Notes under the pieces: generated by a model | What the model saw: the letters and a program-made list of their open reading frames with translations, nothing else | Databases searched by the model: none | Told to the model about the DNA's origin: nothing | Position numbers and translations under genes: made by a program | Part shown: one piece after another, positions 4,167 to 20,254 of the stretch | Position numbering within the stretch: position 1 is the stretch's first letter | Layout of the letters: every line of letters begins with the position of its first letter | Assembly: GCF_944387725.1 (NCBI RefSeq) | Contig: NZ_CALXGA010000021.1 | Coordinates: 1 to 32,140, forward strand | Source: an uncultured Intestinimonas sp. | GTDB taxonomy: Bacteria; Bacillota; Clostridia; Oscillospirales; Oscillospiraceae | Reading direction: 5' to 3' | DNA length: 32,140 bases

Positions 4167-4253
4167 TTTGATCAGGCCCCCTTTTACGGTTAGGTTGCCT
4201 GCCGCCGCCGGAATTATCAGCGGTAAATTTTATGCCTCAGTCCGCCCGGTAGC

Positions 4254-4419
4254 TAGGGCTTGTTTGAAAATTGGCGATGCGTCCGGCAGCGAGGGATTTT
4301 GGGCGGCTGGCAAGCAATTTTTTCGCAGGAATCCTGGCGGATTGCAAGGAAAAATTGCGCCGTCCAGGGGGCAAAAGACCCGCCGGTTGGGCATGTTGAC
4401 ATGTTTCAAACAAGCCCTA
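4254..4419. mobile_element. TA-flanked MITE-like repeat, copy 1 (in the era 3' end)
   Basis: This 166-bp element is bounded by TA on both sides. Its ends are the perfect inverted repeat GGGCTTGTTTGAAA (4256-4269) and TTTCAAACAAGCCC (4404-4417). Inside is a second imperfect hairpin: GCAATTTTT near 4314 pairs with AAAAATTGC near 4350, and within it AATCC (4330-4334) pairs with GGATT (4339-4343). It has no transposase gene. A second copy of the same length and orientation lies at 19140-19305 with six differences. TA flanks plus short terminal repeats suggest a non-autonomous element moved by a Tc1/mariner/IS630-type transposase (inference). It interrupts the end of era and supplies its stop codon. 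Confidence 0.88.
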
Positions 4420-5332
4420 CGTCCCGGATAAAATTGGGGTTGTCCCTCCAGTTTTTCTTGACCTTGACAAAGACCTGAAGGAAGACCTTGGTTCCCATAA
4501 AGGCCTCGATGTCCCTCCGGGCCAGGGTGGAGATTTTTTTCAGCATAGCCCCCCCCCTGCCGATGAGGATACCCTTGTGGCTCTCCTTCTCGCAGTAGAT
4601 GGTGGCGTCGATGTCGAGGATGCCGCTGCCGGTCCGCTCGGAAAACTTGGTGAGCTCCACGGCGGTACCGTGGGGGATCTCCTTGTCCAGGCAGAGCAGC
4701 AGCTTCTCCCGGATGAGCTCGGCGCAGACCTGGCGCTCCGGCTGGTCGGTGACCATGCCGTCGGGGAAGAGCTGAGGGCCCTCCGGAAGGAAGGGCTCCA
4801 GCACGTCCAGCAGCTCCTCCACCCCCTCGCCGGTCTTGGCGGAGATGGGGACGATGGCCTGGAAGTCGTGGGCCTCCTGGTAGGTCTGCATGACGGCGAG
4901 GAGCTTTTCCTTCTCCACCGTGTCGATCTTGTTGATGACCAGCACGGCGGGGACCTTCAGGGCCTGGATGCGCCCCATGAGCTCGGCCTCCGGGCCCCCG
5001 ATGTGGGGGATGGGCTCCACCAGCAGCAGCACGGCGTCCACGTCGGCCACGCTCTCCCGGACCACGTTCACCATGTAATCCCCCAGCCGGGTCCGAGCCT
5101 TGTGGAGACCCGGGGTGTCCAGGAAGACAAACTGGCACTCTCCCCGGTCCACTACCGCGCAGATGCGGTTCCGGGTGGTCTGGGGCTTATTGGTAACGAT
5201 GGCGATCTTCTCCCCCACCAGTGCGTTGGTCAGGGTGGATTTCCCCACGTTGGGCCGTCCCACAATGGACAGCATCCCCGATTTTTTGATCTCCACAGGC
5301 AATTCCGCCTCTCTTTTTTGTTCTTCGGCCAT
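4406..5332 (-). CDS. era: GTPase Era, C-terminus altered by MITE insertion
   Basis: Era is an essential GTPase that binds the 3' end of 16S rRNA and helps assemble the 30S ribosomal subunit. The 308-residue product shows G1 GRPNVGKST (25-33), the switch region with QTTR, G3 DTPG (72-75), G4 NKID near 134, and a C-terminal KH RNA-binding domain with the GRGG loop. The normal body ends at KKNWRDNPNFIRDV; the last three codons and the TGA come from the repeat at 4254-4419. Removing the repeat and one TA restores an in-frame ending ATGRTEA followed by TAA, so the insertion swapped seven C-terminal residues for three. The essential domains are intact, so the protein is probably functional. The ribosome binding site is modest. 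Confidence 0.95.
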   Translation of the reverse strand: MAEEQKREAELPVEIKKSGMLSIVGRPNVGKSTLTNALVGEKIAIVTNKPQTTRNRICAVVDRGECQFVFLDTPGLHKARTRLGDYMVNVVRESVADVDAVLLLVEPIPHIGGPEAELMGRIQALKVPAVLVINKIDTVEKEKLLAVMQTYQEAHDFQAIVPISAKTGEGVEELLDVLEPFLPEGPQLFPDGMVTDQPERQVCAELIREKLLLCLDKEIPHGTAVELTKFSERTGSGILDIDATIYCEKESHKGILIGRGGAMLKKISTLARRDIEAFMGTKVFLQVFVKVKKNWRDNPNFIRDVGLV

Positions 5333-14347: not shown

Positions 14348-14403
14348 AAAAACCAAAGGCCCCCGGCCCGCGCCTGGGCGCGGGCCGGGGGCCTTTGGTT
14401 TTT
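14348..14403 (-). terminator. Exceptionally long perfect-stem terminator (26 bp)
   Basis: Positions 14348-14373 are the exact reverse complement of 14378-14403, with a 4-nt loop. Both ends carry a 5-nt A/T run, so it can act on both strands. It begins 11 nt after the lipoprotein stop. A 26-bp perfect stem is far longer than the usual 8-14 bp. Confidence 0.92.
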
Positions 14404-19139: not shown

Positions 19140-19305
19140 TAGGGCTTGTTTGAAAATTGGCGATGTATCCGGCAGCGAGGGATTTTGGGCCTCTGGCAAG
19201 CAATTTTTTCGCAGGAATCCTGGCGGATTGCAAGGAAAAATTGCGCCGTCCAGGGGGCAAAAGCCCCGCCGGTTGGACATGTTGACATGTTTCAAACAAG
19301 CCCTA
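19140..19305. mobile_element. TA-flanked MITE-like repeat, copy 2 (upstream of the chemoreceptor)
   Basis: This 166-bp copy has the same orientation and length as 4254-4419, with identical terminal repeats (19142-19155 and 19290-19303) and TA on both sides. I count six substitutions between the copies, about 96% identity. It ends about 10 nt before the chemoreceptor ribosome binding site and begins 120 nt after the FtsE-like stop. In this copy GGGGC/GCCCC around a TTTT loop is perfectly paired, while copy 1 has a mismatch there. Any original chemoreceptor promoter would now lie over 160 nt further upstream or be replaced by sequence inside the element. Confidence 0.88.
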
Positions 19306-19425: not shown

Positions 19426-20130
19426 CTAGACGACGTCACCGTAGCGGCCCTTCTGCACATCTCCAAAAATTCTCCCGTCCACCAGCGTAATCACGCGCTT
19501 GCGCATCAGGTTGACAAACTGCTTGGCGTGCGTCGCCATGATCACGGTGGTTCCCCGCCGGTTTAGGTCGCTGATGAGGTGAAACATATCCCAGATGGTG
19601 TCCTCATCCAGGTTGGCTGTCAGCTCATCCAGCACCAAAATGGGGGGGCTGTTGATGATGGCCCGGGCCAGCTCCACCCGGCGGCACTCCCCCTGGGAGA
19701 GCTCCGCAGGGTAGCGCCCCTCCACATTCTTCAGGCCCACCAGGCTCAGGGCCTTCTGAATCCGGTCCTGGACCGGGGCCCGCCGCCTCCTGTGGGTGAG
19801 GCGGGCCGCCGTTTCTAGGTTCTCCTGTATGGTCCGCTTTCGCATCAGCTGGGAGAGCTGGGGGACGTAGCCGATCTGGAGCCGCCGGCGGCTCCAGCTC
19901 CGGGCCATCAGGGAGGAGGTGCTGACATTGTTGATATAAATCTCTCCCCTGGAGGGCCGCAGTTCCCCGGCAATGAGCTGCAGCAGGGTGCTCTTGCCCG
20001 CGCCGCTGCTCCCGGTGACAAAGACGAACTCCTGCCGCTCCACCGTCAGGTCGATCCCCTGGACAGCGGCCACCAGCTTTTTCTCCTGTTGGTAAAATTT
20101 GCTGACACCTTCCATCCAAATTTGTGGCAT
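19426..20130 (-). CDS. FtsE-like ABC transporter ATPase without FtsX partner
   Basis: The 234-residue ABC ATPase is of the FtsE/LolD group: Walker A GSSGAGKST (40-48), Q-loop YVPQLSQL (88-95), signature LSQGE (144-148), Walker B ILVLDE (164-169) followed by LTANLDEDT, and H-loop MATHAKQFVN. FtsE pairs with the membrane protein FtsX to activate peptidoglycan hydrolases at division sites. Here no FtsX gene follows; downstream lie 120 nt of non-coding DNA and the MITE. The usual EPTGNLD after Walker B is ELTANLD. The start ATG (20128-20130, MPQIW) lies 9 nt after AAAGGA; an ATG three codons earlier abuts it. It may be a true FtsE separated from its partner or an unrelated lone ATPase. Confidence 0.85.
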   Translation of the reverse strand: MPQIWMEGVSKFYQQEKKLVAAVQGIDLTVERQEFVFVTGSSGAGKSTLLQLIAGELRPSRGEIYINNVSTSSLMARSWSRRRLQIGYVPQLSQLMRKRTIQENLETAARLTHRRRRAPVQDRIQKALSLVGLKNVEGRYPAELSQGECRRVELARAIINSPPILVLDELTANLDEDTIWDMFHLISDLNRRGTTVIMATHAKQFVNLMRKRVITLVDGRIFGDVQKGRYGDVV

Positions 20131-20225
20131 ATCGACCATTCCTTTCCTGAGCCCCGTGTCTCCCGCCTGTCCGGTCTCCATGTCCCCGCTGCCGCTCGGT
20201 TCCACAGGTTTTCCTGATTCTGCTC

Positions 20226-20254
20226 TATACAAATTCGCTGGACTTTGTTATAAT
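20226..20254 (+). promoter_or_regulatory. Promoter of the C39-like peptidase gene
   Basis: A -35-like TATACA (20226-20231), a 17-nt spacer and a perfect -10 TATAAT (20249-20254) lie 35 nt before the TTG start. The FtsE-like gene diverges from the same region. Confidence 0.65.

Follow-up and report, generated by a model that had tools for sequence, protein, structure and literature searches.

The window, a stretch of 32,140 nucleotides, is contig C21 of an Intestinimonas draft genome (2.18 Mb, 116 contigs, 84.7% complete) and carries two copies of a short repeat (Table 1). Reading of the sequence confirmed the original prediction of two 166-bp copies, TA borders included, with the same orientation and perfect 14-bp ends (GGGCTTGTTTGAAA); the six differences counted between them by eye correspond to 96% identity in the sequence comparison, and the inner hairpin GCAATTTTT/AAAAATTGC with its AATCC/GGATT stem is present in both. 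The transcribed form had been expected to be highly structured, as was borne out by folding of the plus strand of the two copies against shuffles (z -6.6 and -7.9). At 166 bp the element, which short open reading frames cross, is smaller than a transposase gene and, being short with perfect 14-bp ends, has the form of a miniature inverted-repeat transposable element (MITE); as a whole it is a quasi-palindrome. The window had been described as lacking a transposase gene, and neither of the two families sought, PF13358 and PF01609, had a match on C21.

Copy 2 lies beside an ABC-transporter-type gene (19426-20232, minus strand) and, on its other side, a methyl-accepting-chemotaxis-type gene with a likely start below 19140, both named from their translations. 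A scan of the region 4200-4480 found no terminator-like site and a single weak promoter-like match spanning the edge of the element, and a terminator or promoter role was rejected on this result. Positions 14348-14403 of the window resemble a two-way terminator, with a perfect inverted repeat of 27 bp whose arms are 2 bases apart and whose ends carry A/T runs.

Table 1. Positions of the repeat copies, their parts and the interrupted gene in the window
Feature	Position	Strand	Remark
Element copy 1, including TA borders	4254..4419	+	in last codons of era
Copy 1 left terminal inverted repeat, GGGCTTGTTTGAAA	4256..4269	+	
Copy 1 conserved 45-nt core hairpin	4314..4358	+	two helices, GCA/AA internal loop between
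Copy 1 right terminal inverted repeat	4404..4417	-	
era, shortened and re-stopped by the element	4406..5332	-	ends ...RDVGLV; closest relative G007 ...RDVGYRED
Element copy 2, including TA borders	19140..19305	+	
Copy 2 left terminal inverted repeat	19142..19155	+	
Copy 2 conserved 45-nt core hairpin	19200..19244	+	offset as in copy 1
Copy 2 right terminal inverted repeat	19290..19303	-	

Copies, target sites and stop codons

A search of the genome for further copies, as the original prediction had advised, found the 14-base end, one mismatch being allowed, 178 times on the plus strand and 177 times on the minus strand (0 and 0 for a reversed control pattern), a density of approximately one end repeat per 12 kb, and returned at least 42 matches at 95-100% identity with the best 40 of 208 candidates scored. 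The loci fetched from this genome held 93 places, 74 of them full length and 60 of these exactly 166 bases. Median distance to the consensus was 2.4% across the 74 full copies, two of which had no substitutions. Twenty-seven of the 74 were best BLAST hits picked elsewhere (median 1.8% from consensus), among them both copies of the window and a pair from contig C13 absent from the list of our script, and the other 47 came from contigs C1-C13 (median 3.6%). The proposed recent spread is supported in the form of a recently expanded MITE family. Contigs C8, C9, C13, C26 and C68 of the same genome begin within a copy, and the fragmentation of the assembly is probably due to the repeat itself.

TA stood at both borders of 68 of the 74 full copies, in line with target-site duplication, and was preceded by a pyrimidine in 72 of the 74 and followed by a purine in 72. 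These borders indicate that the element inserts at YTAR with duplication of the TA. Since such an insertion leaves YTAR at each border, abutting copies are expected; nine junctions of this kind were found, most with one common TA, two of them belonging to a copy nested within another at an internal TA (locus L076). At era, the last codons were uninterrupted and without the element in all ten genus relatives (one site, compared by eye). The gene of G007 ends in GYRED followed by a stop, whereas here the element truncates it and the end repeat provides a TGA. With the element and one TA removed, the site is one base shorter than in G007; the suggested comparison with empty sites therefore yielded era without the element in relatives but not the exact empty allele. 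Given its many copies and the era site without the element in relatives, the window element appears to be a MITE in recent expansion.

Gene calls made with our own codon-usage script placed the stop of a neighbouring gene at the element border in 20 of the 74 copies, the TA and the first G of the element forming TAG, and in three gene ends, era among them, the stop was a TGA inside the end repeat. In those loci, stop codons made up 10 of the 203 YTAR sites that were free and non-coding (Fisher test of 20 versus 54 copies against 10/203 sites: odds ratio 7.1, p 1.3e-6). An insertion into the TA of a stop leaves the protein unchanged, because only TAA and TAG start with TA and a purine; the initial G of the element would restore TAG, making stop codons safe landing places, and the excess would then reflect survival rather than targeting. 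In itself, a repeat that provides stop codons is nothing new, as BOX repeats in pneumococcus encode the stop codon of 36 genes according to an excerpt of PMC3049150. By the same gene calls, copies lay at a median of 63 bases from a gene 3' end (67 neighbours) but of 249 from a gene start (55 neighbours), and had no orientation bias (17 sense and 26 antisense among 61 placed copies, with 13 of the 74 at locus edges left out, p 0.22). Order-wide, orientation was also unbiased (7 versus 10, with 15 of 49 loci skipped), and a role in read-through transcripts is accordingly not favoured.

Set against the Intestinimonas consensus, the two copies from Flavonifractor sp. An10 (L128, L135) showed 4 differences in 166 positions, an Anaeromassilibacillus copy 5 and an F. 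plautii copy 9. The fetched Flavonifractor loci had four stretches of more than 300 bases in common with those of our genome, and these were only 75-84% identical; this contrast points to transfer between genera. Spread by plasmid or phage was rejected, with no match in the plasmid search, one partial match in the phage search (40% of the query at 81.8%) and, in IMG/VR, no exact match to the left end of the element and one viral contig with the core pattern. An IMG/VR contig of 13,448 bases (L205) carries a GGCC-type element at 1275-1394 with flanks that resemble contig C12 of genome G163 (L156), which makes a prophage a possible carrier of the element from host to host.

The probable partner insertion sequence

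The original prediction took the TA duplication as a mark of Tc1/mariner/IS630-type transposition. In this genome, PF13358 (IS630-type) matches were confined to two adjacent stretches (C40, 16028-16458), perhaps a remnant or a frameshifted gene. Of three end repeats nearby, two belong together as an independent element some 165 bp long, and the third faces away, at the edge of the locus; no IS630-type gene bounded by these ends was seen at C40. The ends adjoin pieces of IS5-family genes instead, and IS630 was rejected as the mover: the duplication stood and the attribution to IS630 did not.

PF01609 had eight matches in the genome, with a perfect repeat correctly placed beside the match on contig C98 alone, where a gene cut by the contig start is followed by the end repeat and TA. 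The C98 protein in turn led to a 5' piece at the end of contig C67, which has a perfect 14-bp repeat and TA ahead of the gene. The two pieces, each at a contig end, overlap by 137 bases, and because this overlap is only 97% identical they probably represent two insertion sequence (IS) copies rather than one. Both the C67 OrfA and the C98 piece scored above the cut-off of NF033580 (IS5); the pieces also match DUF4096 and DDE_Tnp_1, and the C67 piece has overlapping open reading frames and an A-run. The search for a full-length IS with the same 14-bp ends, which had been recommended, thus succeeded in that IS5-family pieces carry them, but the genome itself shows two pieces only.

A relative of 847 bp in genome G009 has both ends, which differ by one base, and overlapping open reading frames. 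Plain blastn of our IS pieces against it gave no match, and the proteins are 83% identical. Of 11 genus genomes searched, 7 gave no match to the IS protein, all seven at most 85% complete and G007, which holds many elements, among them. Excerpts of PMC3281130 describe the IS427 group of IS5 as 832-865 bp long, mostly with a 2-bp duplication and with two overlapping open reading frames and a frameshift motif; the size and overlapping frames of the G009 relative fit this group, as does a 2-bp duplication. This IS differs from the element in being its presumed mover, the two having about only the end repeat in common (by eye). The sequences make a strong case for a MITE with an IS5/IS427-type partner, in which an IS427-type transposase would recognise the 14-bp GGGCTTGTTTGAAA ends, move the 166-bp element in trans and insert it into YTAR, duplicating the TA.

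A conserved core under different ends

The core hairpin reads GCA-GGAATCC-loop-GGATTTC-AAG and is also found within elements bearing other ends. Across 394 genomes of the order, which we take to be Oscillospirales, the strict core pattern occurred in 7, and the full DNA query recovered the element in 20 (best 2 candidates per genome scored), several partial matches covering its middle alone. Since both searches found few genomes, a structure model of 45 positions was built. On the best 15 candidates per genome, the model placed the core in at least 90 of the 394 genomes and in 48 of 168 genera; its E-values are rough, and 16 of the 90 genomes fed the model and match by construction, whilst 74 did not. 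In a draw from the phylum, at least 9 of 398 genomes carried the core, three of the nine from the order (best 15 candidates per genome). Presence between order genomes was patchy, and blastn of 31 loci revealed long common flanks only in the close pair G030/G054, with a few short extras of 37-141 bases. Outside the order, genomes G745 and G785 (each about 6.5 Mb) had 11 and 4 core matches, mostly with GGGCGTGTCTGAAAACTC-like ends (core loci L254, L255, L263, L264, L269, L270, L274, L275 and L279), a possible transfer between orders.

Covariation was counted in an unfitted alignment (A1) of 27 diverse elements, taken from 32 extracted related cores and the window with L058, L205, L207, L210, L211 and L216 left out (a further alignment, A3, left out L058, L205, L210 and L211). 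With the structure derived from A1 itself and one predicted pair dropped before the count, 15 of 20 pairs showed changes on both sides, double-change cells numbered 60 compared to 13.7 in shuffles (reached by 0 of 500), and 92.4% of cells were paired against at most 56.2% when slid. For 53 distinct rows aligned to the model (A4), the covariation score was 0.604, where shuffling gave 0.187 and sliding no more than 0.201; the counts of pairs with a double change (reached by 150 of 500 shuffles) and of further pair types (410 of 500) were not above shuffles. We read this as stems kept by compensatory changes.

The pairs are also polar. On the strand GCAGG...CAAGG, A1 held 47 G.T against 9 A.C cells (non-independent cells, from 12 versus 9 pair columns), and 50 distinct fitted A4 rows held 55 against 1, a count made with three rows and the two outermost pairs dropped and leaning towards G.T because A4 was fitted to a model that permits G.U on that strand. 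Folded as RNA, this strand is the more stable one in 26 of 27 elements (median 14.3 kcal/mol; exception L059). Both sides of the internal loop are nearly invariant, GCA with G in 48, C in 50 and A in 48 of 50 rows, and AA with A in 47 and 49 of 50. Wobble polarity and near-invariant loop bases together favour recognition, by sequence and shape, of RNA or of one defined DNA strand. A known RNA family was rejected, as Rfam gave 0 matches for the window and, for nine related loci, one match far under the gathering score (E 0.42). GTAG/CGTC-tagged REP sequences (tag names after PMC3733652) bear a tag beside the hairpin; judged by eye, this core has GCA on one side and AAG on the other.

Around the core, the ends differ. 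Of 54 loci, several of which shared a genome, two yielded no result; 33 of the other 52 cores had inverted repeats at the expected place, compared with 1 of 184 control positions. Elements delimited in this way mostly measured 159-171 bases, with two families longer, at about 190 and 280. By eye, at least nine kinds of end exist within the order: GGSCTTGTTTGAA; RGGAACCTCTGAATAAA; GGGYGYATCTGAAAA and the like; GAACCTGTTCCCRTAGG; GACCWCCTCGGRAACTTCC; RGGCAATACCGCAYAAT; TTGCTCCACCAATTAAAC; GCAGTGGAGAGCCGAAC; and GCCGCACTGACATAGGAAAACA. Some copies, not all, of each of the first eight kinds have TA at both borders; a right TA was not seen for GCCGCACTGACATAGGAAAACA. G040 carries more than one kind within one genome, and the transposase partner search covered GGSCTTGTTTGAA alone. 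There is good evidence, drawn from sequence comparison, that the element belongs to a wider superfamily defined by the conserved core. Elements of the core family in genomes G160 and G302 (L206-L208, L230, L232) measure about 190 bases or more, and two of those in G302 extend into hairpins that resemble terminators and carry T runs (by eye).

Readings of the interior

The whole is probably explained by a MITE that an IS5/IS427 transposase would move and that carries a conserved one-strand core module. The interior, foreign to the IS seen here, is a conserved foldback module with the 45-nt hairpin core, shared across the order by numerous elements that have other ends and marked by compensatory changes and one-strand polarity. 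A host factor would bind this module, which would act either as RNA or as a single defined strand of DNA. The weakest step concerns its function: that it aids the persistence or movement of the element, rather than particular host genes, is a suggestion we consider less likely than not. A broader reading, an order-wide superfamily of mini-transposons with a selected, one-strand, RNA-like hairpin and replaceable ends whose transposase changed repeatedly, is plausible and falls just short of being probable.

MITEs are generally held to need only their ends, and a plain IS5/IS427 MITE could have an interior without a role, its conservation due to common descent and to palindrome-templated repair copying one arm onto the other. 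The element is quasi-palindromic, and templated correction could yield paired changes; neither the near-invariant, non-complementary GCA/AA internal loop nor the one-strand excess of G.T over A.C is expected from it, and the core is kept while the ends differ, which makes this account unlikely. Structure conserved on one strand, the nearness of copies to gene 3' ends and the two G302 copies within terminator-like hairpins would also suit a regulatory RNA useful to the host (a processing site, an insulator or a 3'-end structure) that transposases spread incidentally. The unbiased orientation, the patchy presence between genomes and long common flanks limited to G030/G054 speak against such an RNA, and we regard it as quite improbable. 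The first proposal, an ordinary Tc1/mariner/IS630-type MITE, shares the TA duplication and could draw on the C40 matches, yet with its ends and TA bordering IS5-family gene pieces, no end repeat seen bounding the C40 gene and YTAR rather than any TA as target, it is very improbable indeed.

The preferred reading, a MITE with a conserved core module, bears comparison with several known repeats. Like the window element, ERIC is an imperfect palindrome with TA duplication, but it is a single consensus sequence with its own ends, the Correia element has TA flanks, and bcr1 has a conserved RNA structure. According to excerpts of the published descriptions, ERIC is a 127-bp repeat (PMC3049150) that occurs 30 to 711 times across two bacterial families (PMC10969869); like the window element it is short and many-copy, but here the core lies under at least nine kinds of end, with an IS5-type partner for one, which sets the two apart by description. 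BOX and RUP of pneumococcus are likewise dispersed, structured repeats tied to IS ends, but RUP has IS630-Spn1-like ends and BOX a modular build, and an order-wide core common to different end types is absent from the excerpted description (PMC3049150). In the Bacillus cereus group, bcr1 has features of a mobile element and numbers up to 130 copies (PMC6542083); it differs, in the excerpt, in its TTTAT motif, a mechanism like site-specific recombination and its restriction to one species group. Over 120 copies of the Correia element are reported (PMC10969869), and neither for it nor for other prokaryotic MITEs do the excerpts describe a conserved core with exchanged ends. The open-licence PMC titles and abstract beginnings listed did not name the element, which is no proof that it is unpublished, and contained nothing joining Flavonifractor with miniature inverted-repeat.

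A single window shows neither the conservation of the interior far beyond the family nor the enrichment of copies at stop codons. The rule by which TA and the following G make TAG helps account for the tolerance of well over 100 insertions in one genome. The ends are usually taken to be all that a MITE needs, and the persistence of the core fold under differing ends in 48 of the 168 genera examined in the order suggests that the interior may be selected, and offers a testable handle on the persistence of small repeats in a large and little studied group of gut bacteria.
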